Positions 1-33,523 of a DNA stretch of 64,000 nt are shown in pieces. The notes under the pieces are model-generated. The model saw only the letters and a program-made list of their open reading frames with translations, searched no databases and was not told where the DNA came from. The translations under genes were made by a program, and so were the position numbers. Source of the stretch: Diplonema papillatum (Eukaryota > Euglenozoa > Diplonemea > Diplonemida > Diplonemidae); NCBI GenBank assembly GCA_030068145.1, contig JAPJBO010001139.1, forward strand, positions 1 to 64,000, written 5' to 3'. Position 1 is the stretch's first letter. Every line of letters starts with the position of its first letter.

Positions 1-602
1 GGTTTGTGTTTTTATTTTTTTCTGTATATTTTTTTTGGGGGTAATTATTTTCGGGGGTTCGCGTAACCCTTCTTTTCCGGAAGATAACGTTATCTTTTCT
101 TTTCTCTCTGGCGCTCTTTTTCTCTCTATCTCTCTCTTTGGCTAGCAAAGCGACTATTGCGACCGACACCACGACCACACCCGTAATGAATGTGATCAAG
201 GGCCCCCCACGTTCTACATGTTGAGCAGTGTGAACTTGAAATGCAGGTACCACAGGGGTAAGCTTGCATGTTGAGCAGGGGTTGCCATGTAGCCCGTACC
301 GGTCTAAGCCTTCATTGCAGCTTCCATAAGCACCCCCGTTGGGACGGGTCCGACGGTCCGTTAGTCATCAGCGACATCGGGCGGGAAAAAGTAAATAAAA
401 AGAAAGGGGAAAAATGGGGGTGTGGGTGGATAAGCTCGTGGTAGGTTGTTCGGAAATAAGTACAACCTCAAACTACGCCTAGCACAGGGCCAGGCGGCAT
501 ATACGTGCCTTCATCCTCTCATGTTAGTGTGCGTTCACTCGTACACGGGTGCGGAGTGAAACATAGACCAGCCAGCACCCGATGAGGCTCAAACGACGTG
601 GA
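1..602 (-). other. 3' flank of RT-USP retroelement copy 1
   Basis: No gene is seen here. From about 120 to 515 the sequence is closely related to about 3710-4050, which lies at the same place downstream of the second RT-USP copy. Shared landmarks include CGACCGACACCACGA, GTTGAGCAGGGGTTGCCATG, CTACGCCTAGCACA and GGCCAGGCGG. Because both coding copies read on the minus strand, this is best taken as the 3' untranslated end of the element. The first 120 bases are T-rich with no assignable feature. Confidence 0.6.
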
Positions 603-3401
603 TCAGAATCTCACACCCGCGAGGTGGCAACGTCTCTCATGCGCGCGGAGTCCCCTCAGACCTTGGAACCTCTGGCCATCCCTCGTGCACTCGATGGAGC
701 AGTGTTGACATCGCAGCACCGGGGAACCCGTAAACTGCTGTTCAAACAACTGACCATGCGGTGTCAGACATTGGGAGTCCGGCAAGGGCGGGCAGGGTGG
801 CGAATTACCAAAGGGGCAGAAGGAGTCAGGTGATCCTTCCGACTGCCGGCTCATCAAATTACCGGCTGAACCTGGGGGTGCAGGCAAGTCGGGTAGCCGA
901 TCCTGAGTGGGAAGCACCATGGAGGGTGACGGGGCACGGACAGTCATGTCGTGGGCATTCCGGGGGATCCGGACAAAGGCCGCGAGGTAAACGTCACCCC
1001 ACGGAATGTCGTCGACAGAGGTGACGTGCAGGTCGTCGAAGAGGATCCACCCCGTGTCTTGCGCAACGTACGTGACGTAGTGCCCGCTAGCCGTATCCTC
1101 CCCCATGTGCACCACGACGGCTGCGAGGCGTAGCAGATGGTCCGGCGGTCCGAAGAAGGGGGGCAGTTTCACGTCATTCTGGCGCCTGGCACCGTTTCTC
1201 GTGTAGATGCCAAACTGCATCAGAACACATTCAGCTGTCAGACGGAGATCCATGCTTTCAACCACCGTACCTACAGCCTTGCAGTCGCATACTCTCTCCG
1301 GATTCACAAACCCGTGCACGTGGAGAGAGTCTTCCAGCTTCCTTCCGCAAGGAATTTGCAAACATTGCATTACCTGACTGCTGGAAGAAGTGCGTCCACA
1401 TGCACTACATCGTACTGAGCTGGTCCAGCCGTTCTCCAAGCATGTTACGAAGAGTTGGTAGCCCGGGCAGGGGGTCCCCGTTTCGTCCGGACCCAGCGTC
1501 GCACTAGTCGCGCTGAGTATCGCTACCAGAGCTTCGTGCGCATCGTGCTGCCGTGCATCGCAGAAGTTTGCGAACATGCTCAGGATGGCTTGGACACCCA
1601 TTCTCCGACAATCCCGGCTACGCTGGTCACCACTGTCGCGAGAGCTTGACAGCATGGCAAAGTAAGCCAGGAAGTCCCCGAGAAATCCACGGCAGTTGGG
1701 GAGGTCCTGCGCAAGGCTCCAGTACATCTCTCTGATCGGCCCAACCCGTAGCAGGAGCTGCAGCACCGCACCAAAGAAGCACGTGTTCCCCAGATTCGGG
1801 AGGCCGGCGGGGCCAAACAGCGTCGGATCATGCCTCACGGAAGGCGGGTGTGTACAAACGACTGATCGGTAGCACGTGGATGGAGGGGCAACTGTTAGAA
1901 CCGGTTTGTGGACATTCGAGCGGCGTCGCTTTGAAGCCCGTTGTTCGTCCTCTTCAGCCTTTCGCTTGTGGCCTTTCCGCGTGGACTCACGGGGGGCGGT
2001 CGTGTCAGCCTGTCGGGTCGGTGCTTCGGTGGGCGGTGATCGGGGGGCGTCATCTTCAGCTTCCGGGACAGGTTGGGGGCGGCCATTGTATTTCACGAAG
2101 GGTCTTTCAGCCAGAAGGCGCTCGATCGCAAGGTCCATCGCGGCCGGCTCTGGCAGTGATAGAGTGCGTTCCACCTCGTGAATGAGCCAGAAGAAGTGCC
2201 CCCGCACCTTCCCGCAATGCTCGCCAAATTTGGCCTCTGGGTATGTGTCCAGGAGCCATTTGCGGAATCCACTCTTCAAAACGCTTTTCCGGTAACCACG
2301 CCGCATGAGTTTCAAGACCGTGTTGTTCATTTCGGTCTTGAAATCATATATGTTGTTGGCGATCCTACCGTTGCGAACGAGGGCCCCAATGAGGATGCTC
2401 GAACCGAAGTTTGACGGGGCCGTAGACAGGACTGACGTGTACGCGAGGGGGCGGTACGGGTAGGCTTTCGCCTTGTCCAAGACCGACAGTCGCATGTATC
2501 GCCTTCCAGACGCGGAGACCTCATGTCGTAACCGTATGCCAAGGAAAGTCGCATCCCCTACGCATGCATTCGTCTGCTTGTACCCCATGCTGTAGATGGA
2601 CTCGGGAGGGGGTTTCGTCCCGAAACAGAGCAGGTCATCTATAAAACGGCGCGTCATGCTGAGGAGTGTAGCCCGCCGGATGTCCCTTTCAGCCAGGAGT
2701 CTCATCATGTACCTCTTCTCCTTTGCGTAGCAGAAGAGATTGGCAATGTCTGGGGAGGCGTTAGCGCCCATCGGGATGCCCAATATTTGCCGCATGAGGA
2801 TGCCGTTCACCAGTACGTACGTGTTCGCCAGGCAGAAAGCGAGGAGGGCCTTGAGGTCGTGTGCAGAATATGCTGCCTGCTGTGAGCTCAGATCCGTCAA
2901 CAGCATGAACGCAAAACAACGTTTCTTCTTCTGCGGCCCATGTTGGCTCTTCGGTCGTACTAGGACCAGTTCATCAACCCGAACGCCGAGCCGTTCGGCC
3001 TCCGCTGCAAAGGCTTCGTCGATGGTACCAGCGATTTCCTCCAGCAGTTCCTCGAGTCCCAGCTGGTCGTACATGGTCGTGAAATCCCATGTACCCGCGA
3101 CCAGGCCCGAGAGCTCGTCAACATGCGTCTTCAGAAAGAAGGCGGTGTCGTCACTGGACTCCGTGATCCAGAAGAATCTAAACCCGGTCGCGTTGAATCG
3201 GTCGTTGTCCTCCCTCCGTAGGATCTCCATGACTGATTTCAACAGACCCGTTAGATCCAGCTGTGCATCCGTCGTCGATGAAAATGTTGCATCGGGGCGG
3301 CGTGTTTCGCGTTCAGGAAAAGTCTCCCCCGGGCCCACAGTGTTTTTGCGGGAGACCCCGGCGATGTACCGCATGGTTATCACCTCCTTGTGTAGTTTCA
3401 A
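603..3401 (-). CDS. Retroelement polyprotein: reverse transcriptase + ubiquitin-specific protease + C2H2 finger (copy 1)
   Basis: About 932 residues are open. The start of the reading (LKLHK...MRYIAGVS, residues 1-17) resembles the fingers motif of non-LTR-type RTs. Motif A is TWDFTTMYDQL with Asp106, motif B is GIPMGANASPDIANLF (208-223), motif C is RRFIDDLLCF with the Asp pair at 255-256, and FLGIRLR (286-292) fits motif D. A basic linker (about 450-500, KRKAEED..KRRR) looks like a nuclear signal. Residues about 530-815 form a USP (peptidase C19) domain: Cys541 in NLGNTCFF, QHDAHE at 618-623, CxxC zinc ligands at 665/668, His774 in SGHYVTYV and the Asp of WILFDD near 789. The last ~35 residues hold a C2H2-like finger (CQHC...HERRCH). 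No GIY-YIG or AP endonuclease is visible. The motif style is closer to Penelope-like or telomerase-like RTs than to LTR elements, but the clade is not settled. Sequence upstream of the reading also looks coding, so this copy is probably incomplete and old. Confidence 0.85.
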   Translation of the reverse strand: MKLHKEVITMRYIAGVSRKNTVGPGETFPERETRRPDATFSSTTDAQLDLTGLLKSVMEILRREDNDRFNATGFRFFWITESSDDTAFFLKTHVDELSGLVAGTWDFTTMYDQLGLEELLEEIAGTIDEAFAAEAERLGVRVDELVLVRPKSQHGPQKKKRCFAFMLLTDLSSQQAAYSAHDLKALLAFCLANTYVLVNGILMRQILGIPMGANASPDIANLFCYAKEKRYMMRLLAERDIRRATLLSMTRRFIDDLLCFGTKPPPESIYSMGYKQTNACVGDATFLGIRLRHEVSASGRRYMRLSVLDKAKAYPYRPLAYTSVLSTAPSNFGSSILIGALVRNGRIANNIYDFKTEMNNTVLKLMRRGYRKSVLKSGFRKWLLDTYPEAKFGEHCGKVRGHFFWLIHEVERTLSLPEPAAMDLAIERLLAERPFVKYNGRPQPVPEAEDDAPRSPPTEAPTRQADTTAPRESTRKGHKRKAEEDEQRASKRRRSNVHKPVLTVAPPSTCYRSVVCTHPPSVRHDPTLFGPAGLPNLGNTCFFGAVLQLLLRVGPIREMYWSLAQDLPNCRGFLGDFLAYFAMLSSSRDSGDQRSRDCRRMGVQAILSMFANFCDARQHDAHEALVAILSATSATLGPDETGTPCPGYQLFVTCLENGWTSSVRCSACGRTSSSSQVMQCLQIPCGRKLEDSLHVHGFVNPERVCDCKAVGTVVESMDLRLTAECVLMQFGIYTRNGARRQNDVKLPPFFGPPDHLLRLAAVVVHMGEDTASGHYVTYVAQDTGWILFDDLHVTSVDDIPWGDVYLAAFVRIPRNAHDMTVRAPSPSMVLPTQDRLPDLPAPPGSAGNLMSRQSEGSPDSFCPFGNSPPCPPLPDSQCLTPHGQLFEQQFTGSPVLRCQHCSIECTRDGQRFQGLRGLRAHERRCHLAGVRF

Positions 3402-3699
3402 GGTGCCATAAAGGTAGGGGGGAGGGTGTTCGTGGGGCTCAGCCCTTTTTGCTCCAGGTACGTCTTGTGATCTGCTACGACTTCTTCCGGTGTCTTCTCG
3501 CTCGGGGCGTAGTTCACGCTGTGGTTAACCTTCGTGTACAGATCCTGGGGGGGGGGGGGGGGGGGGGGGGGGGGTCGTTGTTGTTGGTGCTGGTTTTGTG
3601 GGATGTAGTAGGGGAAAGAAAAATTCTTTTTGCGGTGGTCTCCGCTGGCCTGGTAGTCCGTGCTACCTCCTTTCTTTTACACTCGTTCTCTTCTCTACT
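3402..3699 (-). other. Junction between the two RT-USP copies
   Basis: This stretch separates the 5' side of copy 1 from the 3' end of copy 2. It includes coding-like sequence related to the element and then the G run at 3547-3574. No separate gene is supported. Confidence 0.45.
3547..3574. repeat. Poly-G run
   Basis: A run of about 28 G lies at the junction of the two RT-USP copies. Several other G or C runs in this window also sit on mobile-element boundaries. Confidence 0.9.
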
Positions 3700-4220
3700 C
3701 ACTACTGTACGTACTCTTTCGCTCTTTTTACTCTCTTTGGCTAGCCAAAACAAAAGACTTCTGCGACCGACACCACGAACACATTCGCAATGAATGTGGC
3801 CCTGGCCCCCCACGTGCATACATGTTGAGCAGGGGTTGCCATGTAGCCCGTATCGGTCTAAGTCAACACTGTTACTTTCATGGGATGTTCACCGGGGAAG
3901 GGTCTGACCTAACCGTTAGTCAACAGCAACGTCGAAAAGGGGAGGGGGAAAGAAGATAGAAAATCGGTGGGGTTGACAAGCTCGTAAGTGGTTGTTTGTA
4001 GATCAGTACAACCTTAAACTACGCCTAGCACACGGCCAGGCGGTCTTTAACGAACCTCCAGTACATTAAACGCAAGTCGGCAGGTCGTCATCAGACGCGG
4101 CACGAAAAGCAAACTTCGCCGACGCAGCACTTCAGCAATGCGTCCTCTTATTTACAGTGGGCACCGTACCTGAACTCAGCCCCGCTAGGCCGAGATTCCG
4201 GCTGTTCCGCAGGGCATACA
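3700..4220 (-). other. 3' flank of RT-USP copy 2, repeat of 120-515
   Basis: This holds the same landmarks as 120-515 (GGCTAGC, CGACCGACACCACGA, TTGAGCAGGGGTTGCCATG, CTACGCCTAGCACA), so it is the downstream end of the second copy. It lies just upstream of copy 1 on the minus strand, giving a head-to-tail arrangement. Confidence 0.65.
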
Positions 4221-6255
4221 TCACTCCCCGAAGTTGACGTACGTGCAGAGACGTTCGTGCACATGCAGGCCTCTGAGGCCCCGGAACAATCGACCGTCCT
4301 TGGTGCGGTCGGTGAAGCAGCGCTTGCAGCGCAGTTCCGGGGGGTCCTTGGGCTGTTCAGGTGGCTGGTCGTGTGCTGCCAAAGCGGCGTCGGGGGGCAT
4401 GGGTTGGCAAGATTCCAGATTCGCGTCGGTACAGGGCGGACTAGAAGGTATCAGCGGGACCTGCGGTGGGACTGTTGTTGCCATCATAGTAGGTGATGGC
4501 AAGCGTTCGACCACCTCGTGGGACGCATTGGGGATTCGTACGTATGCGGCGAGGTATATGTCAGTCCAAGGAACGTTGTCGACGTGCAAGACTCGTTCGT
4601 CATCGAAAAGCGTCCATTGCATCCCTTGCAAGACGTATGTGACAAAATGGCCGCTTGTCGTATTTTGTCCCGTGTGTACAACCACCGCGGAAAGGCGTAG
4701 TGTGCCGTCCGGCAGTCGCAGGAGGAGCGGTAGGGAAGCGTCATTCCGTAGTCTCGCACCATCGCTTGCGTAAATGCCGAACTGCAACAGCAGGCACTCG
4801 GACGCCACATGCACGTTCATGGTCTCCACAACGGATCCAGCAGCTCCGCAGTCACACCTCCTCTCCGGATTCATAATTCCACGAACACAGAATGCGTCCT
4901 CCACCGGCCTTCCACGAGGGACTTGAAGACACCGTACCAGTTGATGACGGGTGGATGTGGCGCCACAGGTGATACATCGTGTTGTTGTCGTCATCGTGTT
5001 CTCCAGGCACGTCTGGAAAAGCCGCCAATCCGGACAAGCCTCCGTCGTCTCGTCCGGCCCTAGGGAGCTGTCTGTCCTATCCAGAATTGCAACCAAAGCC
5101 TCGTGCGCGTCGTGCTGTCGCGCATCGCAGAACATTGGGAGCATGGCGAGGATTGTTTCAGCCCCTATCCTTCGGCTGTCTTGGCTGAGCTGGCTCCTCC
5201 CCGAGCGCGAGCTTACCAGTAGGACGAAGTACGTCAAGAACTCCTTCAGGAACCCCCGGAAATTCAGAGGATTCTGCGCAAGACTGTAATACATGTTCTC
5301 GATCGGTTCCACACGCAACAAGAGCTGCAGTACCGCATTGAGAAAACAAGTATTCCCAAGGTTCGGGAGGCCGGCAGGCTCAAACGGTGACGGGTCGAAC
5401 ATGCGGGAGGGCCGTTGGATACAAATGACAGCTTGGCGGCCGACAGCGGGTGATGATTCCAGCATGTCAGGCACTGCATGGGACACGTCGCAGCGCCGTT
5501 TCGGTCCAGGCTGAGCAGCCTCATCGTCTCTGCGCTTGCGCTTTCCTTTAGTAGTCCCATCCTGGGGCACAAGATCACGACGCTGCTTCAAAGTTCGATG
5601 GAGCCGTAGAGAGCACGGATGTGTACGCCAAGGGCTGGTATCGGTATGCCTTCGCTTTGTCGAGGACTGACAGGCGCATGTATCTCCTCCCGGACATCTC
5701 GGAGACTTCATGTCGAATCCGAATACCGAGGAAAGTGGCGTCCCCAACCTCGGCGTTTGTCTGTTTGTACCTCATGTTGTACACAGATTCCGGTGGGGGT
5801 TTTGTGCCGAAACACAACAGATCGTCAATGAAGCGGCGTGTCAGGCTAAGCAATGCTGCACGTTGCGTGTCCCTGTCTTCCAAGAGTCGCATCATGTATT
5901 TCCGCTCTTTCGCATAGCAAAAGAGGTTGGCGATGTCCGGGGAAGCGTTCGCACCCATTGGGATGCCTAGCGTCTGCCTCATGAGAACCCTATTGACCAG
6001 AACATAGGTATTCACCAGGCAGAAAGACAAGAGGGTCTTGAGCTCCTGCGCCGAATACGCTGCTTCATGTGACCGTACCTCCGCGTTTACCTTAAAGGCG
6101 AAACAGCGCTTCTTACGAGTCGGCCCGTGTTGGCTCTTCGGACGTACTAATACGAGTCTTCCCGCGTCCACGTTCAAACGTGCAGCCTCCGCCGCGAAGG
6201 CCTCATTAATCGTGTCCGCAACCGCATTAAGAAGCTCCTCAAGCTCCAGGGGGGA
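4221..6255 (-). pseudogene. RT-USP retroelement copy 2, broken and shorter
   Basis: This is a second, diverged copy of the element at 603-3401 in the same orientation. The RT part reads GIPMGANASPDIANLF and RRFIDDLLCFGTKPPPESVY. The USP part keeps Cys in NLGNTCFLNA, QHDAHE, His in SGHFVTYV and the FDD motif. The C2H2-like finger (CKRCF...HERLC) is kept at the end. The copy is broken in a few places and lacks its N-terminal RT region, which stops where the inverted-repeat transposon at 6256 begins. The two copies differ at many silent and replacement sites, so they are not a recent duplication, yet the protease residues are kept in both. Confidence 0.8.
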
Positions 6256-7464
6256 GGGGGGGTCAAAAGCTGTCAAAATAGGTCATTTTTTTGGGAACCA
6301 CATAGGGGCTCCTAAAAGGCAATACAATTTGGTAAACCGCCCCAAAACCGTATAGAAATGCCTAAAACATGCTTTTTGGCTGCTGAAGTGCCCCGAAAAG
6401 GCCTTTTTACGAGTGCCCAATTTTTGGACTCAGGGTGGACACCGTTTGGTACCGGTGTTCTTCTTTTTAGGTGACAACCCCAAAAATAGTGACAGCATGA
6501 ACCGAAGAAGGAAAACAACACTGCCCAAACCTATGTATTTTTACTCAAAAGACTTTCCTGAGAGTTGGGGATGGTGGGGCTTCGTAGGAGGCATTGACAA
6601 GCGACTCAATGAGGTACGGCTTCGTAACGTGCCGCCCCCTCGAGTCCTTGACGTCAGCGCCAGCTTTCGTAGTGGCCTGTGTCGTGTAGCGTGCTACCGC
6701 AAGCTGCAGATACCCTGCCCTGAGCTGCTATGTCGTGGCAGTCCTATAAATCCACCGCCGAACCTTTTCGTTCAAGTCCAGTTTTCTATTTTTGTTCAAG
6801 CTCAACGTGCGTTGGGGTTAGGTACCAGAGATACACCCCGGTGACCAGTATTGTCTTCCGTGCGTGTGCAATGCGACCCTTTCGGGGTGGTGTACGAAAG
6901 GCGAACTTGAATAAAAGACACTGTCGCGTGCATCCCTTCAACAAAAACGTTGGGATCTGGAAAATCCCACTACGGATGAGAGCATCTCATTGTTTTTCTC
7001 GGAAAGACATCGAACTTTGTGAATATCGCTCCAGCAGAAGTTCGGGGAAGAGCTGCTGCCTGCGGTGTCAACAACACCTCAGCTTGCGCAAGACTCAGAG
7101 AGCCTTTTGGGACGTTGTTAACCATCCAGACGAGCAACGTTCATAGCTGCCTTCCTCCTGGGTGTCGTTTGCCCTTTTGTTGCTTCCATTTGTGGCTGCC
7201 TGCACGTGATTGTAGCCTCATCTTTGCATGGTATGAACAGTGAAGCACACACACAGGCTGCTAGCCGGTACCAAACGGTGTCCACCCTAAAACCATCAAC
7301 TAATACACCCCCCCCTGGGCCATTTTCCATGAAACTTCCCCCAAAAACACGTTTCCGGGCATTTCTGAGGCGGGTTGCATGTTTTTTTAGCCTTAAACTG
7401 CCGTTAAGTCTACAGGCTGAAAATGTCACCATTTTGACGCAAAAAAAGACCTTTTGACCCCCCC
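6256..7464. mobile_element. Non-autonomous TIR DNA transposon (family T2)
   Basis: The left end GGGGGGGTCAAAAG is mirrored by CTTTTGACCCCCCC at the right end. Further in, GGTGGACACCGTTTGGTACC (from about 6433) is matched by its reverse complement at about 7247-7266. Imperfect terminal inverted repeats therefore span roughly 190 bp. No transposase is recognised between them. The left end abuts the truncated RT-USP copy 2, and the right end abuts element T1 at 7467. Confidence 0.65.
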
Positions 7465-7466
7465 TA

Positions 7467-8702
7467 GGGCTAAGTTGGATGGAAACGCCGTTTCTTTTAG
7501 TTTTTTCGAAATATGGAAACGGAAACGGAAACGGAAACGTTTCCGTTTCTTTTAAAAGAAACGCCGGAAGGCTCCTCATGCTGAGGGGTCCTATAGGATA
7601 CCACTTCGCGGGTCCTTCTGTGTGTCCGTCGGGTGTCCGTTTCCAGCCAAATTTTGGCTTTCCTTTCAGAGGGCGGGATCACCTTCTTCTTTTGGTCTAC
7701 CAGCAGGCACTTTTCTTCCTCCGTCTCGGCCCCTTCTTGTGTGTCGTCGCGGTCTCGTTTGTGCAGAGCAGTCGCTGATGCTCACCGCTTTCTTTCGTCG
7801 GCGATCTGACACGAGCAAATAGGTAACCACAAGCTAATGATGCAGAATGTCGTCACATGCGGATGCTGAGGTTTTCTGACACCAGATTCCACTCTTCAGT
7901 GCCTACCACTTCGTCCTCTGCTGCTTCCAACCCGCGTTCTCATGTTTACTTGTATCGGTGGCCGTGCCGAGTGGGGCTTTTTGAATCTGCCGTCCTCTTC
8001 TGCGAGGTGAGAGGTGAGAAGGGCACACGTATGCCGGGGCAATGTTAAACCCGCCAGAAAAGCGATGGCCACGCAGTAACGTGTGCGGCATCGCTTGCCA
8101 CAGTGCACCTTGCATACGACGACGGGTGGCAACCGTCACGAAGGGGCACCATCGGGCGGTGTTGTCGGAGCATAGACAGCGACGGCAGGAAGAACCCCAC
8201 CGACAATGATTGCACTCCCTCTTTGTCTTACGCCGCCGAAAAACCCCGGTCTTGTAGCCTGTGGCGCGGCGGTGCTCCCGCTGTCCTGAACGATCGTATC
8301 TGTATAGCCTATTATTGGAAGCGGATGTGCTTTCTCGATCGTCTTCAGCGCGTTGGCCAACGGCCTCGCATAACAGAGCATCGTCGCCACAACAGCCATT
8401 GGTATAAAAGCTGCAGACCTCAAAGTCATCACAACCGGATGCGTGTGGTTGCGTCTGCTCCACGCGGTCGCAACTCTTATGCTTCATTCCGCCCTCTTTT
8501 TCGGAGCCTCCTTGTCCATGGTTTCCCACTGGATTGCGGGGTCCGCCGTTCGGAACACATTTCCGGTCGGACCTTCAGCCAGTATACTAGTGGCATACCA
8601 GCCGTTTCTTTTGAAAAGAAACGGCGTTTCCATCCACCGCCAAAAAGAAGGAAACGGAAACGGAAACGGAAACGTTTCCAACGTTTCCATCCTACATAGC
8701 CC
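7467..8702. mobile_element. TIR DNA transposon T1, copy 1 (TA target duplication)
   Basis: The ends are GGGCTAAGTTGGATGGAAAC on the left and, reversed, GGGCTATGTAGGATGGAAAC on the right, each flanked by TA (7465-7466 and 8703-8704). Just inside lie GGAAAC arrays and a second inverted pair around AAGAAACGGCGTTTCC. No transposase is recognised, so it is non-autonomous. TA duplication suggests a Tc1/mariner-type mobilising enzyme, which is an inference. A second copy at 49326-50561 has the same total length but an inverted internal segment. Confidence 0.85.
8004..8207. other. Segment inverted relative to T1 copy 2
   Basis: This block starts GAGGTGAGAGGTGAGAAGG and ends CACCGACAAT. In the other T1 copy (49924-50097) the same sequence is present as its reverse complement between matching flanks, with a few small insertions and deletions. 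Confidence 0.85.
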
Positions 8703-8719
8703 TAGGGGGGGGTGCGCAC

Positions 8720-10576
8720 CTGGTCGCCGCCCGGGTTGCGCGCGTCGACTTCGGCCCGCCGCTGGGCGGCCCACGCCCGCGCGCCTTCGACCAAGAACGG
8801 GTGGCTGCAGACGGCGCGCAGCTGCGGGATGACCCTCGCGACGCTGGTCGTGGGGTGCGCCGCCCCGGCCCCGCCGCTCGGCTCCGCGCGCAGGAGCAGC
8901 TCCCGGTTCTTCCGGAGCACAGCGCCGTACACCATCTTCTGGAACCCCGTCAGCTCCACGTTGATGTGCGTGTCCGTCCGATCAGGCAAAATGTCACCCA
9001 GCGCCTCGTCCTTCGTCCTTCTGAGGAGGTAAGGACGGATTCGGTCTTTCAAAGTTCCAAAGCCCCCGGCTGCGCCCCCATCTTCCGAGAGCGCGACGGA
9101 GTCCCGCAGAGCGGCGAAAGACTGCCGTTCCGACAACGCGAACGTTGCGGGCGACGCGATGTGGAGCAGAGCCCAGAGCTCCTCGAGGTTGTTCTGGACG
9201 GGCGTGCCTGTGAGCAGGAACTTGTGCCGGGCGAGGGCCCGCTTCGCCAGCCCCCAAAGCTGCCCTGCCGAGTTTTTGAGCCGGTGGGCCTCGTCGAACA
9301 CGACGACGGCCCAGTGCCGGGCCGAGAGCCCCGCCTCCCTCTCCCGGGCGAACGTCTCGTACGTGGTGACGACCACGTGCGGCGTGACCGGCAGCCCCTT
9401 TTTGGCCGGCAGGATCTCGCACGCCGCGATGGCTCGGCTCTCCGGCTTCCCGTGGTAGCACACGTGCGTGAGGACGCCCCACGTGTCGAGCTCCTTTTCC
9501 CAGTGACTCAGCAGGGAGAGGGGCACCACGATCAAATGCGGGCCCAGCGACCGACCGGACTGCGCGAGGCCATTCAGGAAAGAGATGGTCTGCAGCGTCT
9601 TCCCGAGCCCCATATCATCGCCGAGGATGCCTCCGTCACCCACCGCGTAGCGCTGCTCGTACCACGCAACGCCCTGCCGCTGGAAGCCGTGCAGATGCGC
9701 GCCCGCAGACTTCAGCGGGACCGTGAGTTTTCGCTTCACGAAGCCGTCGTGCTTCTTCAGCAGCGACGCCGGCACGTCGTCGTAGCTCTCCCAGGTGCAC
9801 GACGCGTGTGGGAGTCCCGACCAAAGGACGAGTGCTTTTCGCGTGTCCGGAGACAGTTCGACCACCCGCTTCATGGTGGTGTACTCCTTGGGGAAGGGTT
9901 CTGGGTCTGGGGGGATGTCCGGGGCGGCGAGGTCGATTTTGCGGTCGGTGAGGTACTTGTTGACTTTGGCCTGCAGCTTCGCGGGGTCGAAGGTGGCGTG
10001 GGCCTCGTCGACGGTCCACCAGCGCGCCTTCGTGTAGCTCCGGCCCTTGAGCTTGAGGAGGTACTCCTCGTGCTCGTGCTGGACGCGGCGCATGGTCAGC
10101 ACGGCTTGCAGGGTGGGGCCGCCGCCGGGGATGAGGATGTCCGAAAATCCGCTTGATGCGACGGTGCTGCCGTCTCGCGCGCGTGCCACCGGCCGCCTTC
10201 TTCTGTTCTTCCTCTTGTCCCCCGAGCTACTACTCGAAGACGAAGAAGAAGAAGAAGAAGAAGAAGAGGGGGGAGGAGACAGCGTGTTCGACGCGGAACC
10301 AGCGTCCGAGCGTCCTTTCGACGGCGAAATCACTATTGATCCCTCGCCGCCGCCGGGCCGCGCCGCCTGCTGCCCTGAGACCAGTCTTGCTGCCGCTGCT
10401 GCTGCTGCTGCCGCTGCTGCTGCGGGGATCCCGCGCACCTCGCGGTTCGTCCTGCCGTCGACGAACGCGCCGCTGTGCTCGCCGCTGCCGATCTGCGTCG
10501 ACACCGTCCCCGTCGGCGCGTACACCAGCACCTCCTCCGGCTTCTTCTGCCACTGGAAGTTCGGGATGCTCACCAT
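8720..10576 (-). CDS. CHD-type SNF2 chromatin remodeller, N-terminal part (exon)
   Basis: 619 codons are open from ATG at 10576, with an in-frame stop shortly upstream. The protein has low-complexity Ala (52-63) and Ser (about 104-118, from GAA/TCT-type repeats) tracts, chromodomain-like segments near 165-190 (EEYLLKLKGRSYTKARWW) and 235-265 (KALVLWSGLPHASCTWES), then the SNF2 ATPase lobe 1. That lobe shows the Walker A motif GDDMGLGKT (319-327), DEAH (428-431) and LTGTPVQNN (455-463). These are the hallmarks of CHD1-like ATP-dependent nucleosome remodellers acting in the nucleus. The second helicase lobe is missing. Coding stops at a possible donor CAG|GTGCGC (8720/8719), and transposon T1 begins 15 bases further on. 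The gene may continue in exons left of the window behind inserted transposons, or may be cut off by them. It has no closely spaced host neighbour. Confidence 0.85.
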
Positions 10577-10970
10577 CTTCTTCTTCTTCTTTTTTAGCTG
10601 CTGCTACTATTTCACATGGTTTGGACGTTCCTCTCTTTTATCGGACCCTGGAGGACAAGTGGAAAGCTTTCAAAAGCGTTGGGAAAGTATCGATTTTGCT
10701 GTGATGAGGTACTTGTTTACTTTGGCCTGCAGCGGGGTCAAAGGCAAGTGGAAAGCTTCAAAATTCTTGGGAAAGAATCAATTTTTGCTACGGTCACTCT
10801 TTTGTGTCGGAACGCCATGAAAAGGTTTTCCGGTTTTTGGGAAACTTGAATTCGCGTTATGGTGCTGTGGCGGAGAAGTCAGTTCATGACTTGTGGTTCG
10901 GATCCCGCCAAGGGTGTTTTCCCCACGTCGAGCTTTGGAGCTCGGTCCGGGGGAACGGGTAAGTTTGTTG
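10577..10970 (-). other. Upstream region of the CHD gene with a relic of the gene
   Basis: No gene is seen. GTGGAAAGCTTTCAAAAGCG and a similar GTGGAAAGCTTCAAAATTC recur 80 bases apart. A 63-bp relic of the CHD coding region is listed separately. Confidence 0.4.
10688..10750 (-). pseudogene. Degenerate fragment of the CHD coding region
   Basis: The stretch matches 9928-9993 inside the CHD exon in the same orientation. Shared pieces are TCGATTTTGC, TGAGGTACTTGTT and GACTTTGGCCTGCAGC (one base differs), then GGGGTC(A/G)AAGG. It lies upstream of the gene start and cannot code. Confidence 0.75.
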
Positions 10971-11212
10971 CATTGGTGTGTGGGCCTTTGAAGTGTGAAT
11001 GATGCCTCTCGCGCTGCTCCCCTTGAGGTTCCTGGCTCATGCCAAAGCGCCGCCGCCCGGATTCAGGGGTTGCGGCATCAGGCGTAAACTGGTGTGGTTG
11101 GTGTGTGGGCCTTTGAAGCTTGGATGATGCCTCTCGCGCTGCTCCCCTTGAGGTTCCTGGCTCATGCCAAAGCGCCGCCGCCCGGATTAAGGGGTAGCGG
11201 CATCAGACGTGG
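10971..11212. repeat. Two-copy tandem repeat, ~127-bp unit
   Basis: TTGGTGTGTGGGCCTTTGAA followed by GATGCCTCTCGCGCTGCTCC and CATGCCAAAGCGCCGCCGCC occurs twice in direct order, with few differences. Confidence 0.85.
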
Positions 11213-30056: not shown

Positions 30057-31640
30057 CTAACATTGCGGGCGATTTAGTCTTGTGTACTGATCCGCGATGT
30101 TCTGGAGCGACGGGACGTAGCTGATATTCAGCCGGCTCCTGGATGAGGCCAAGCTCTTGTTGATCAGAGTTAGCAGCTGCATCGCATCCTGACGAAGCGT
30201 GTAGCCGCGGCGTACGCAGCCTATCACCGCCTTGTTGTCACACAGCAGGTTGATGTCCACGCTCGACTGGCCGTGGACCGCGTGCTGTACGGCCCGAACG
30301 ACGGCGTATAGCTCCTTCATGAAGATGTCCGCGTGGAGTAACTCCGCAGGAAAACCGCCGTAGACATGGGACCCGTCTGCCACGAAGGCCCATGCCGACA
30401 TGCTGGCGTCGGAGACGACATCGATCGAACGAGTGTAAACCGGTTTACACCATTGCCGCCAGGCGTTACCCCGCATGTCGGAGCACTGGGCAACGAGGCA
30501 GCTCTTGACCGCAGCTGGGCAAGGCGCGACGGAGTCCCAGAACGCGCTGTCGGTGGACGAACGGCCGGAAGCCAGGGTTGACATCCACTGCAAGAGGAGA
30601 AGTACCTCGTGGAGAGGGTACCCCATCACGTGGCGACGCCAGAGCAGAGACCCGGTCAGTTTCCACCACACGCGGACGGGAGCCTCACTACACTCCCGGA
30701 TGCGATCCATCACCGGTCCAGCCTTCCCTATCCAGGATGGGTCCACACGCCATCTCTTCGCTGCGAGGTCGACTTCCAATCCCAGCAGCACCGCCCGGGT
30801 AGAAGGCTTGGACCAGCTCCCGATGGTCAAGCCGTACTTCGAAGTCAAAGCCTTGAAGCGAGCTGAGGCCTCTATAACTTCGGCCTCAGTGTCCGCCACA
30901 AATATCACGTTATCGATCCACGCGAGAACCTCAACGTCCACACCCTGAGCGGCGGCAACCGCAAGCTCCAGCGAGACCGCCTGGGCCGCCTGAGGCGCAG
31001 CGCGGTAGCCCATCGGCAGGCGCGTCATCCACAACAGCCTGCCCTCAATACGGAAACAGAAATACTTTCTGACCTCTGGAGGCAGCGCAAACTGGAAAAA
31101 AAAGGAGCGGAAGTCGAACTCAGCCACCCACTTGCGGGACAGCACCGTACTCACGATGGTGGCGTAGCTGGGTAGGTCGCAGGGCGGCAAAGGCACGTGT
31201 GCCGTGGCCCGGTTGATTGACTCGCAGCTGAGGATGAACCGAAGCTGACCGGGGGCCCGTTTATCCACCGTAAACGCGCCGTGAAACCAGCGGGAAGAAG
31301 CCGCCTTGGGGACCGGCGCAGCGATCTTCAACGCGAGCAAGCGCTCAACGTGCGGCCTCATTCGTGAGTTGCGCGGACCAGGGCCGGATACGAACGAACC
31401 CGGTCTTAACATGCTTCCGATGAACTCGGAATCCAGTAACCATCGCATGTTGGTCCGGAGAGCGGGAAAATCGTGCAAGAGCGCTTCGTGACTGAACGGC
31501 GGAGCCGTCGAAGCTATTTCACCTTCATAGGATGCTTTCGTTACGCGCTTTCCACTGCTGGCGTCCAACCAACCGTTGGCGTAGTCGTAACCCTGGAGGA
31601 TCTTGTCCAGGTGGCGCGGCCACAATGGAGGCTTAGCGGG
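30057..31640 (-). CDS. Reverse transcriptase and RNase H region of the retrotransposon
   Basis: RT signatures are PLPPCDLPSYATIVSTVLS, EFDFRSFFFQFALP (motif A), LPMGYRAAPQAAQAV (motif B) and WIDNVIFVAD (motif C region), followed by LLGLEVDL. An RNase H-like part follows, with VVSDASMSAWAF, KELYAVVRAV, LLCDNKAVIG and a terminal YVPSLQNIADQYTR. This order is usual for YR retrotransposons. The start lies close to the end of the recombinase region, so the family's usual coupled expression is likely. Confidence 0.8.
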   Translation of the reverse strand, partial: PAKPPLWPRHLDKILQGYDYANGWLDASSGKRVTKASYEGEIASTAPPFSHEALLHDFPALRTNMRWLLDSEFIGSMLRPGSFVSGPGPRNSRMRPHVERLLALKIAAPVPKAASSRWFHGAFTVDKRAPGQLRFILSCESINRATAHVPLPPCDLPSYATIVSTVLSRKWVAEFDFRSFFFQFALPPEVRKYFCFRIEGRLLWMTRLPMGYRAAPQAAQAVSLELAVAAAQGVDVEVLAWIDNVIFVADTEAEVIEASARFKALTSKYGLTIGSWSKPSTRAVLLGLEVDLAAKRWRVDPSWIGKAGPVMDRIRECSEAPVRVWWKLTGSLLWRRHVMGYPLHEVLLLLQWMSTLASGRSSTDSAFWDSVAPCPAAVKSCLVAQCSDMRGNAWRQWCKPVYTRSIDVVSDASMSAWAFVADGSHVYGGFPAELLHADIFMKELYAVVRAVQHAVHGQSSVDINLLCDNKAVIGCVRRGYTLRQDAMQLLTLINKSLASSRSRLNISYVPSLQNIADQYTRLNRPQC

Positions 31641-31648
31641 GCGGTCGT

Positions 31649-32569
31649 TCAGTCGGTTTTCTGCAGCGCAGCTGTACCCGGGACTGTCCGCTGGACCGGC
31701 TGCCAAAGGTGATGCGGCGTGTACAGCCGCGTCGTCCTGGGGTTGAGGTGACGACCTACGCACATCGCTGCTTGCTCTCCTTCCACAAAAGCCACCCAAG
31801 TCAGCGCGGCATGTCTGATCCTGTGTGAAGGAACCCCCAGCTCCTCTTGAAGGAAACTGTTGTAAGCCTGTCTTGACAGGTTGGGGAACACGAACGCCTT
31901 GGGGCCGCTGGCAGGGCGTTGGATGGTGATCCATTCCCAAAAAGGCGTCAGAAAAGCCCCGCTTCGTGGCAGTAAGAGACCCTGTCCTCGGGACGTCGGG
32001 TCGGTCTTCCCGCCGACAAACAGGATCATGACCTGTTGCTTGTCCACCGACCACATGTGGTCCAACCGGACCCGTTGCAGGTCCACGAACCGGCACGCCG
32101 TCGACCACTGGAACCGGAGGGCCATGGTATGCAAGCCGGGGCCTCGTGAGACCACCTGTAGGACCTCCTCTTTGGATGGGGTCCGCCCGGCATCGCGGGT
32201 ACGTCGGTCCTCGAACTGATCCATGGTCAGCCTGACCGAGCGCCGGTATGCGCTCATCCAGTTCACCCGAGACATCCGGAAGTAGGTCACGTACTGGAGA
32301 GCCGACTCGGCCTTGATCTCGCCAGCCGTCACCTTCCGATTCACCCACATCAGGAAGGCTTCCTCGTCGGATAACGTGGGGCGAAAGCGTCGGGCCTCCT
32401 CCGCGTATCTCTGAGCGCGGCTCACCACTGACAGCATGGCAGGGGTGCTCTTGTAGCACTTCTGCACGGCGAGGAGGAGTGCCTCCTGATCCCTTCGGAA
32501 CCGATCTTGATCGGGACACCCGAAGTCTTGTTTCCGAGGTAGTGACCTCTTTACCACCTCTGCCCACAA
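31649..32569 (-). CDS. Tyrosine recombinase of the retrotransposon
   Basis: About 306 residues are open. The N-terminal half is a SAM-like, core-binding helical part (MLSVVSRAQRYAEEARRF, ALQYVTYFRMSRVNWMSAYR). The catalytic half shows the first Arg in STACRFVDLQRVRLDHM, HRIRHAALTWVAF as the H-x-x-R box, and GRHLNPRTTRLYTPHH with the nucleophile Tyr. Such enzymes integrate a circular DNA copy, which fits the absence of LTRs and of a DDE integrase. Confidence 0.8.
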   Translation of the reverse strand: MWAEVVKRSLPRKQDFGCPDQDRFRRDQEALLLAVQKCYKSTPAMLSVVSRAQRYAEEARRFRPTLSDEEAFLMWVNRKVTAGEIKAESALQYVTYFRMSRVNWMSAYRRSVRLTMDQFEDRRTRDAGRTPSKEEVLQVVSRGPGLHTMALRFQWSTACRFVDLQRVRLDHMWSVDKQQVMILFVGGKTDPTSRGQGLLLPRSGAFLTPFWEWITIQRPASGPKAFVFPNLSRQAYNSFLQEELGVPSHRIRHAALTWVAFVEGEQAAMCVGRHLNPRTTRLYTPHHLWQPVQRTVPGTAALQKTD

Positions 32570-32605
32570 ACCCGCGGTAGGCAGGCCTGCGGGACTCGCC
32601 GACCC

Positions 32606-33523
32606 TCACCTTCGAGGCCTCTTCAGGGAGGGCTCCTTCTTCTCCTCCTTGTTGTCTGCCTTTTTTGCCAGCTCGGCCATGGCCTTCTGGGCTTGGATCA
32701 AGGCCGCCTTCGTGAAGTCGGCATAGTCCATGGACCCGAAGCGAGTCTCCCAGGAAACCTGGAACTCAGTGCCGTTCGAGTGGAGGCATTTAAGGCGAAG
32801 GGCTTCGAGGCGGACCATGATCTGGTGCAAAACCTGGAGGACAGGCGGGGAGCTGTGTGCCAGGGGCATCAGAGCCGTGAGCGTGGAGAAATGCATCCTC
32901 CGCTCATGATCCAGGGAGCTTCCCGCATCGTGGGGGTGCTCTGGCACCAGGTGGTACGTGTACCGTGCCTTAACCTCCGACAGAATCATCTGTCGCCCCT
33001 GTCCGCTCGCCAATCCTTCCAGCCAAGTAGTGACTCGACGAGGATCCACCGCTTCGGTAGTGACCGGTGCGGCTGGCACTGGAGCGAGCTGAGCCCGCAT
33101 GGCAGACTGTGCAAACAATGCAAGAAAGGCAGTCTTGACTGGCCCCTCTTCGAGAGCAGCGAGCAGGGAGCATGGGTCCAAGCTCGGGGGGACGGCCGGA
33201 TCGTGATCACGGGTCCCCCTCGCGTTCTGTTCTTCTTTTAGGCTGCTGCCGGCCTGGTGTAGTGACACCAGGCACTGGGGACAGACCCAGCCGTCCTCGG
33301 ACAAGTGTTCGAGGAACAGGGGCGCGACCTCCTTCGGCAGGGATGCCTTCAGGCATGACGGGAACCCCCGTTTGCCGCACCGGGCGCAGAAGGCACCCGA
33401 GTTGTGGGTCTTGCCACAGTCGACGCAGCAGTCCACGTCCTCGTCGGCGGCCTCCCAACCGTCGGGGGCAAGGACGACCTCGATGGGAGACCAGTCGACA
33501 GCCTTCAGGTCAATCGCCATCTG
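32606..33523 (-). CDS. Gag-like zinc-finger protein of the retrotransposon
   Basis: About 305 residues from ATG near 33523. A cysteine-rich N-terminal region (CCVDCGKTHNSGAFCARCGK, then GWVCPQC) is followed by an acidic/Ala-rich middle and a very basic C-terminus ending LKRPRR. Position and size fit the first protein of a YR retrotransposon. No capsid fold was recognised. Confidence 0.6.
   Translation of the reverse strand, partial: QMAIDLKAVDWSPIEVVLAPDGWEAADEDVDCCVDCGKTHNSGAFCARCGKRGFPSCLKASLPKEVAPLFLEHLSEDGWVCPQCLVSLHQAGSSLKEEQNARGTRDHDPAVPPSLDPCSLLAALEEGPVKTAFLALFAQSAMRAQLAPVPAAPVTTEAVDPRRVTTWLEGLASGQGRQMILSEVKARYTYHLVPEHPHDAGSSLDHERRMHFSTLTALMPLAHSSPPVLQVLHQIMVRLEALRLKCLHSNGTEFQVSWETRFGSMDYADFTKAALIQAQKAMAELAKKADNKEEKKEPSLKRPRR

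Follow-up and report, generated by a model that had tools for sequence, protein, structure and literature searches.

In the 64,000-nucleotide stretch of the Diplonema papillatum genome analysed here (contig JAPJBO010001139.1, positions 1 to 64,000; hereafter, the window), a retroelement reverse transcriptase (RT) is fused to a ubiquitin-specific protease (USP), and this fusion is real and part of the element. Both window copies are dead and probably represent two related families of Penelope-like elements whose protein bears a GIY-YIG endonuclease at its N-terminus and a USP at its C-terminus. We hold with high confidence that the USP is an integral part of the element and is under selection.

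The minus-strand frame at 603-3524 of the window encodes 973 amino acids (aa), and at 606-3419 it runs for 938 codons without a stop, which has a chance of ~4e-15 given the base composition. According to Pfam, residues 574-839 of this open reading frame (ORF) match UCH (USP, peptidase C19; expectation value E 5.2e-21), and the frame contains the USP boxes GLPNLGNTCF, QHDAHE, SGHY, and WILFDD. Direct reading also shows the RT motifs DFTTMYDQL (A), GIPMGANASP (B), and RFIDDL (C). The first-pass annotation of this DNA had placed RT and USP in one open frame at 603-3401; the frame is indeed open, but the homology runs beyond 3401, in another frame, to 3544. Its RT motifs (A, B, and C can be made out in frame), its basic linker between RT and USP (1866-2069, minus strand), and its C19 domain with Cys, QHDAHE, His, and Asp motifs are borne out, while the C-terminal finger, described there as C2H2-like, reads by eye as C-x2-C...H-x3-C, i.e., C2HC. 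Of the two Pfam domains it named for a check of the translation, UCH was found, but RVT_1 was not.

Searching 5.8 billion proteins with the ORF and scoring the 7996 candidates with the most shared words yielded 13 matches, ten of them from D. papillatum itself (a marine protist of the diplonemids, Euglenozoa). The top ones are P0001 (1499 aa, 99% identity), P0002 (1485 aa, 62%), and P0003 (1146 aa, 88%); P0004, P0006, and P0008-P0012 are fragments, or gene models with element pieces joined to other sequence. The models of P0008, P0009, and P0010 join such pieces to RRP12, a Mg/proton exchanger, or a second RT resembling those of long interspersed nuclear elements (LINEs; P0010, by eye), and these joins are probably annotation fusions. 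The remaining three matches are the ENA proteins P0005, P0007, and P0013, and the profile search contributed P0014 alone, a canonical Penelope protein (E 1.6e-5). The protein clusters of P0001, P0002, and P0003 have 10, 11, and 7 members, yet one contig each; hence, the members may be duplicate records, and we draw no copy number from them. The public annotation names these element proteins "ubiquitin carboxyl-terminal hydrolase 16," so counts of host deubiquitinases in D. papillatum may be inflated by element copies.

The full order in P0001 and P0002 is an N-terminal GIY-YIG endonuclease, a CxC segment, the RT, a complete USP, and the C2HC finger. Pfam places the endonuclease at residues 86-129 of P0001 (E 1.3e-4) and 88-130 of P0002 (E 9.8e-5), upstream of the RT (~490-950); the GIY-YIG of P0013 is a by-eye reading, unlisted by Pfam. 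Between endonuclease and RT, C388 and C390 of P0001 are invariant in six out of six sequences of alignment A1; a further protein introduced below, P0015, is outside this alignment, and its record begins downstream of the CxC segment.

Copy 1 (606-3544, minus strand) belongs to the P0001 family, covers residues 520-1499, is 5'-truncated, and has one frameshift at ~3419; its main block is 98.9% identical to P0001. Copy 2 (4224-6249, minus strand) represents the second family, that of P0002; it is truncated, matches P0002 682-904 and 1031-1485 in two blocks (97-99% identity) with 126 residues deleted internally, and has its own UCH match (Pfam E 5.6e-24). The two lie head to tail, but come from two different families. 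Neither is intact: both are 5'-truncated, and the endonuclease is in neither. What had been annotated as a diverged copy at 4221-6255 does keep the RT-then-USP order and the catalytic boxes, but its bounds are 4224-6249, it is of a different family, and it has lost the 126 residues. The features are as follows.

1-602, minus strand: copy 1 3' untranslated region (UTR), with two predicted stem-loops in 415-505 and blocks shared with copy 2; it may extend beyond the window edge
603-905, minus strand: copy 1 C-terminal tail, C2HC finger and stop codon
906-1865, minus strand: copy 1 USP domain and flanks, with the UCH match inside and the Cys/His/Asp boxes and two Cys pairs (CxxC, CxC) intact
1866-2069, minus strand: copy 1 basic, fast-evolving RT-USP linker (see below for its rate relative to copy 2)
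2070-3419, minus strand: copy 1 RT part, with motif A at ~3085, B at ~2780, and C at ~2640 (estimates from P0001 residue numbers)
606-3419, minus strand: copy 1 RT core (motifs 1, 2, A, B, C), thumb, basic linker, USP, and C2HC finger, corresponding to P0001 561-1499 (98.9%)
3419-3544, minus strand: 42 more residues of copy 1 in the other frame, corresponding to P0001 520-561 (100%), with the 5' truncation point at 3544
3547-3574, no strand assigned: 28-nt tract of G, read as C on the element strand, flanked by the 3' side of copy 2 and by copy 1 at its truncated 5' end
3575-4223, minus strand: copy 2 3' UTR
4224-5588, minus strand: copy 2 linker remnant, USP, and C2HC finger, corresponding to P0002 1031-1485 (99.1%)
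5581-6249, minus strand: copy 2 RT fragment, corresponding to P0002 682-904 (97.3%), with residues 905-1030 deleted and a frame change; its 5' end abuts G-rich GGGGGGAGGGGGGG

Both truncated 5' ends (two out of two, two cases only) adjoin G-rich tracts: that of copy 1 (3544) is 2 nt from the G tract at 3547-3574, and that of copy 2 abuts the run GGGGGGAGGGGGGG from 6249. The 3' regions share conserved blocks, one of them 42 nt long with one difference. Hairpins in the 3' UTRs at 425-500 and 3970-4045 (minus strand) are common to both families and are a candidate RT recognition signal; the predicted fold has z -2.45 in copy 1 and a weaker z -0.87 in copy 2, and only in copy 1 does it clearly exceed shuffled sequences in strength.

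The RT-then-USP order is found in two D. papillatum families, each represented both in the window and by a full-length public protein, and recurs in two divergent ENA proteins from other sources. In P0005 (1662 aa), the RT is followed by several C2HC-like fingers, with UCH (E 3.4e-15) after them. P0015 (840 aa; 3.4 kb contig), found with the P0002 USP as a query, has the RT and then UCH (E 2.1e-33), and in BLASTP it is collinear with P0001 across RT and USP (22% identity, E 4e-39 for the pair). The earlier claim that the fusion belongs to the element is upheld by these families and proteins, and it passes the test proposed with it, namely that this order occur at several loci. Among the eight RT-bearing proteins compared, Pfam detects UCH in four (P0001, P0002, P0005, P0015) and does not detect it in P0007, P0013, and P0014; the gene model of P0003 retains the USP Cys box only.

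The P0002 USP search covered proteins of 0.55-1.75 x 1485 aa sharing 5-residue words, a range above shorter host USPs. Out of 3955 candidates, it returned five proteins, namely P0002 itself, P0001, P0003, P0015 (52 bits), and P0016, a USP36-like USP of a tardigrade (26% identity, 47 bits). Thus, within this size range, the refuting outcome named in the first-pass annotation, a USP closely matching a host gene and seen at this locus only, was not observed. Chance read-through is ruled out by the 938 open codons, the two families, and the kept catalytic boxes, and a host USP broken by an RT insert is ruled out by the repeated order in P0005 and P0015.

That annotation or assembly wrongly put together an RT fragment and a host USP gene has a next to negligible probability. 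Gene models of D. papillatum in which element pieces are merged with host genes do exist (RRP12 in P0008, the exchanger in P0009), but the join in copy 1 lies within one uninterrupted genomic frame, copy 2, from the other family, has the USP and adjoining linker downstream of its RT fragment, and the order recurs in unrelated records, the window DNA itself refuting such an artefact. Judging from these sequences, the RT-USP join looks maintained and not accidental.

The comparison of copy 1 with copy 2 indicates that the USP is selected as a protein during the divergence of the two D. papillatum families, since its nonsynonymous divergence (dN) is 0.326 against a saturated synonymous one (dS ~1.9; proportion of synonymous differences, pS, 0.69; 311 codons), and dN of the linker is 1.24 (50 alignable codons at 20% identity, part of which may be misaligned). 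The values for the RT and the tail are 0.168 (222 codons) and 0.475 (72 codons), respectively.

These rates bear on passenger capture, in which the USP is a functionless piece of a host gene and its recurrences are independent captures. Penelope-like elements can transduce host sequence (PMC6431247; here and for the other PMC-numbered sources, statements refer to the consulted part of the text), and P0007 and P0013 are without a USP. Moreover, the P0015 RT is as distant from P0001 as that of canonical P0014, and the P0015 USP scores higher with solved USP36 (60 bits) than the P0002 USP does with P0015 (52 bits), which falls short of demonstrating one capture in a common ancestor; P0015 may be a very old relative, or its fusion may have arisen independently. 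Captures made independently are therefore quite possible, but of the two halves of this explanation a USP without function is the less likely: the USP is strongly constrained compared with the fast linker, its catalytic residues are kept, and it is always C-terminal to the RT, while a USP captured again and again in one position would in itself point to a use. As a whole, passenger capture is improbable, and we retain the selected, integral USP.

The USP that ends the element protein looks like an active deubiquitinase. P0001, P0002, and P0015 all keep the Cys, Gln, His, and Asp boxes intact, and these boxes can be aligned with those of solved USP36, Ubp8, and USP21; the rank of USP36 as the top profile match is biased, as USP36-like P0016 was in the profile. 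The structure model of the USP (mean predicted local distance difference test, pLDDT, 45; predicted template modelling score, pTM, 0.50) matches USP-family chains throughout the matches listed, with a template modelling score of ~0.4 and a root-mean-square deviation of 12-20. Alignment A3 misplaced the P0005 USP, and P0005 was therefore omitted from A5.

Alternatively, the USP may be catalytically idle, a ubiquitin or chromatin binding module guiding the element to ubiquitinated histones or repair foci. This agrees with the degenerate Q-box of P0005 and with the faster evolution of the USP compared with the RT (dN 0.33 vs. 0.17). Mere binding, however, needs none of the Cys/His/Asp boxes that both D. 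papillatum families and P0015 have kept intact, and we regard this alternative as unlikely. On balance, we favor a USP serving the element as a deubiquitinase, with protection of the element's own protein and action at the target site about equally likely.

Several observations weigh against the picture drawn above. The USP model is poor, as its mean pLDDT of 45 indicates. P0005 is without the QQDAHE box, which makes its activity doubtful, and it had no PDB match in the single-sequence search. P0007 and P0013 are without a USP; hence, either the USP is non-obligatory in the wider group or these records are incomplete. The records of P0005, P0007, and P0015 start too late to include the position of an N-terminal endonuclease, so that endonuclease and USP are seen together in D. 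papillatum only. At 24% RT identity to P0001, the same as that of P0014, P0015 may fall outside the subgroup. Finally, saturation of dS makes dN/dS a bound only, and misalignment can inflate dN in a linker control of 50 codons at 20% identity.

The best matches of the RT are telomerases (TERT) in the PDB profile search, Foldseek, and VIA-align. The RT assignment rests on these profile and fold matches since Pfam RVT_1 leaves the copy 1 ORF unmatched; its match to copy 2 is below the cut-off (E 0.089), and in P0001, P0002, P0005, P0007, P0013, and P0015 it is below the cut-off or unlisted, P0014 alone passing. NCBIfam gave just matches far under its cut-offs, group II and Drt RTs among them, and PHROGs gave one weak match only, to a tail-terminator (E 0.16). 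RT identity to P0001 is 48% for P0005, 45% for P0007, 26% for P0013, and 24% for both P0015 and P0014; these identities alone are used, as in the RT tree of eight rows zero out of five inner branches were starred and long branches met. The spacing between motifs A and B is 85-102 in six out of six proteins measured vs. 68 in canonical P0014, a measure of spacing and not the identification of an inserted domain.

Craig et al. are said to have described in 2021 the Naiad and Chlamys groups, Penelope-like elements with an N-terminal GIY-YIG endonuclease. Features of these groups are a CxC segment, an RT of the Penelope/telomerase clade with a fingers insertion between motifs A and B, the lack of a hammerhead ribozyme, pseudo-LTRs (long terminal repeats), tandem copies, and insertion beside simple repeats; a CCHH motif in the endonuclease marks Naiads, and the Chlamys endonuclease is without paired Cys. 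We take the D. papillatum layout to be that of Naiad/Chlamys plus the USP, and the element very likely belongs to the N-terminal-endonuclease type of Penelope-like elements. It shares with these groups the N-terminal GIY-YIG, CxC, the telomerase-like RT, and no hammerhead match (a scan of window positions 1-9000, which hold truncated copies only, gave two matches at E up to 5, neither a hammerhead). The longer A-B spacing and the ends beside simple repeats may be further resemblances. It differs in the added C-terminal USP and C2HC finger and in its diplonemid host. Unlike in Naiads, and as in Chlamys, no Cys pair is seen by eye near GIY...YIG in the endonuclease segments of P0001, P0002, and P0013, i.e., the Naiad CCHH motif is absent from them. 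Nor do P0001, P0002, and P0015 have the C-terminal GIY-YIG of canonical Penelope/Poseidon, ending instead in the USP with or without the finger.

The USP probably shields the element's own protein from ubiquitin-dependent destruction, clears ubiquitin at the insertion site, or both. In the mechanism we propose, the endonuclease would nick target DNA, perhaps in or close to G tracts, and the RT would copy the element RNA from the nick, beginning at the conserved 3' region and often stopping early, which would yield 5'-truncated inserts. The USP, residing on the same protein, would deubiquitinate the element's own protein-RNA complex and/or proteins at the nick such as histones or PCNA, allowing the complex to survive and the insertion to be completed. 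Nicking and target-primed copying are suggested by the general biology of GIY-YIG endonucleases and telomerase-like RTs, the comparison for both steps being a canonical Penelope protein in vitro (PMC11167929). More tentatively, and with rather low probability, RT-USP elements may be an old and widespread branch (or repeated inventions) of protist Penelope-like elements, with target-site ubiquitin removal (H2A/H2B, PCNA, stalled polymerase) built into insertion; if true, this would be a retroelement editing the ubiquitin state of chromatin in order to integrate.

The USP, a cysteine protease on a single long protein with a long and variable RT-USP linker, might also have been repurposed for polyprotein processing, cutting the element's own protein, e.g., at the linker, as viral proteases do. 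USPs cleave after the C-terminal Gly-Gly of ubiquitin-like folds, though, and Pfam detects no ubiquitin-like domain in P0001, P0002, P0005, and P0015, which makes such processing very improbable; besides, the linker is barely conserved between the families, and no fixed cleavage site is apparent. As for the deubiquitinase favored here, D. papillatum is described as genetically tractable (PMC8611851), and thus its role can be tested.

Viral origin of the element is unsupported. Protein scans of viral_contigs with A2, P0015, P0013, and P0005 gave 39, 0, 0, and 30 pattern matches, respectively, with no relative confirmed; a degenerate motif scan of the same set gave zero matches, P0005 had no match in phages, and the 50 BFVD fold matches listed were viral polymerases, polyproteins, or unnamed. 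Similarly, a scan of genome_contigs with A2 for a prokaryotic relative gave 26 pattern matches, none confirmed.

Elsewhere in the window, a separate retroelement at 30057-32765 (minus strand) has a different RT ORF of 902 aa (RVT_1 E 4e-8). The region 7458-8711 (~1.25 kb) resembles a non-autonomous DNA element: it is delimited by inverted repeats of 30 bp (93%) that start with CCCCCCCTAGGGCTA, and GGAAAC arrays lie inward of these at either end. A host-like gene at 8702-10603 (minus strand) combines a chromodomain with an SNF2 ATPase (CHD-type remodeller; SNF2 E 4e-61). There are also a 31-nt inverted repeat at 6425-6455 and 7265-7295 (90% complementary, 809 nt apart) and two 113-nt direct repeats at 10973-11210 (95% identical, 125 nt start to start).

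The first-pass annotation knew of no described RT-USP fusion. The titles and abstract beginnings listed in searches of the openly licensed literature likewise contain neither such a fusion nor a diplonemid Penelope-like element, but a Trichomonas protein combining transposase_11 with peptidase C19 has already been mentioned (PMC2836005). The D. papillatum genome paper treats retroelements in general terms, and no word starting with "ubiquitin" occurs in its main text (PMC10161547). OTU and Ulp1 proteases occur in several unrelated mobile elements: OTU or Ulp1 in Ginger DNA transposons (PMC2836005), Ulp1 in NeSL and Utopia LINEs (PMC4640811), and OTU in Helentrons (PMC6431247). A USP, from another protease family and on a telomerase-like RT, selected between two D. 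papillatum families and present in the same position in two divergent relatives, strengthens the case that ubiquitin control is a general need of transposition.

The element shares the catalytic fold and residues of cellular USPs (USP36, USP12/46, Ubp8, USP21, and others), which are encoded by host genes without an RT; the one aligned as sequence, P0016, is at most 26% identical. Canonical Penelope/Poseidon proteins (PMC11167929; P0014) also have a telomerase-like RT and a GIY-YIG endonuclease in one protein, but their endonuclease is C-terminal, they have no USP, and their A-B spacing is shorter (68 in P0014 vs. 85-102). The non-LTR elements NeSL and Utopia resemble the D. papillatum element in that their retroelement protein carries a cysteine protease from the ubiquitin/SUMO-removing class, but this protease is Ulp1-like, N-terminal, and accompanied by a restriction-like endonuclease (PMC4640811). 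Ginger1, Helentrons, and the Trichomonas protein likewise join a mobile-element protein to a deubiquitinase-class protease, in Trichomonas of the same C19 family, but they are DNA transposases or rolling-circle proteins with no reverse transcriptase (PMC2836005, PMC6431247). What appears new here is a Penelope-like element with an added and selected deubiquitinase.

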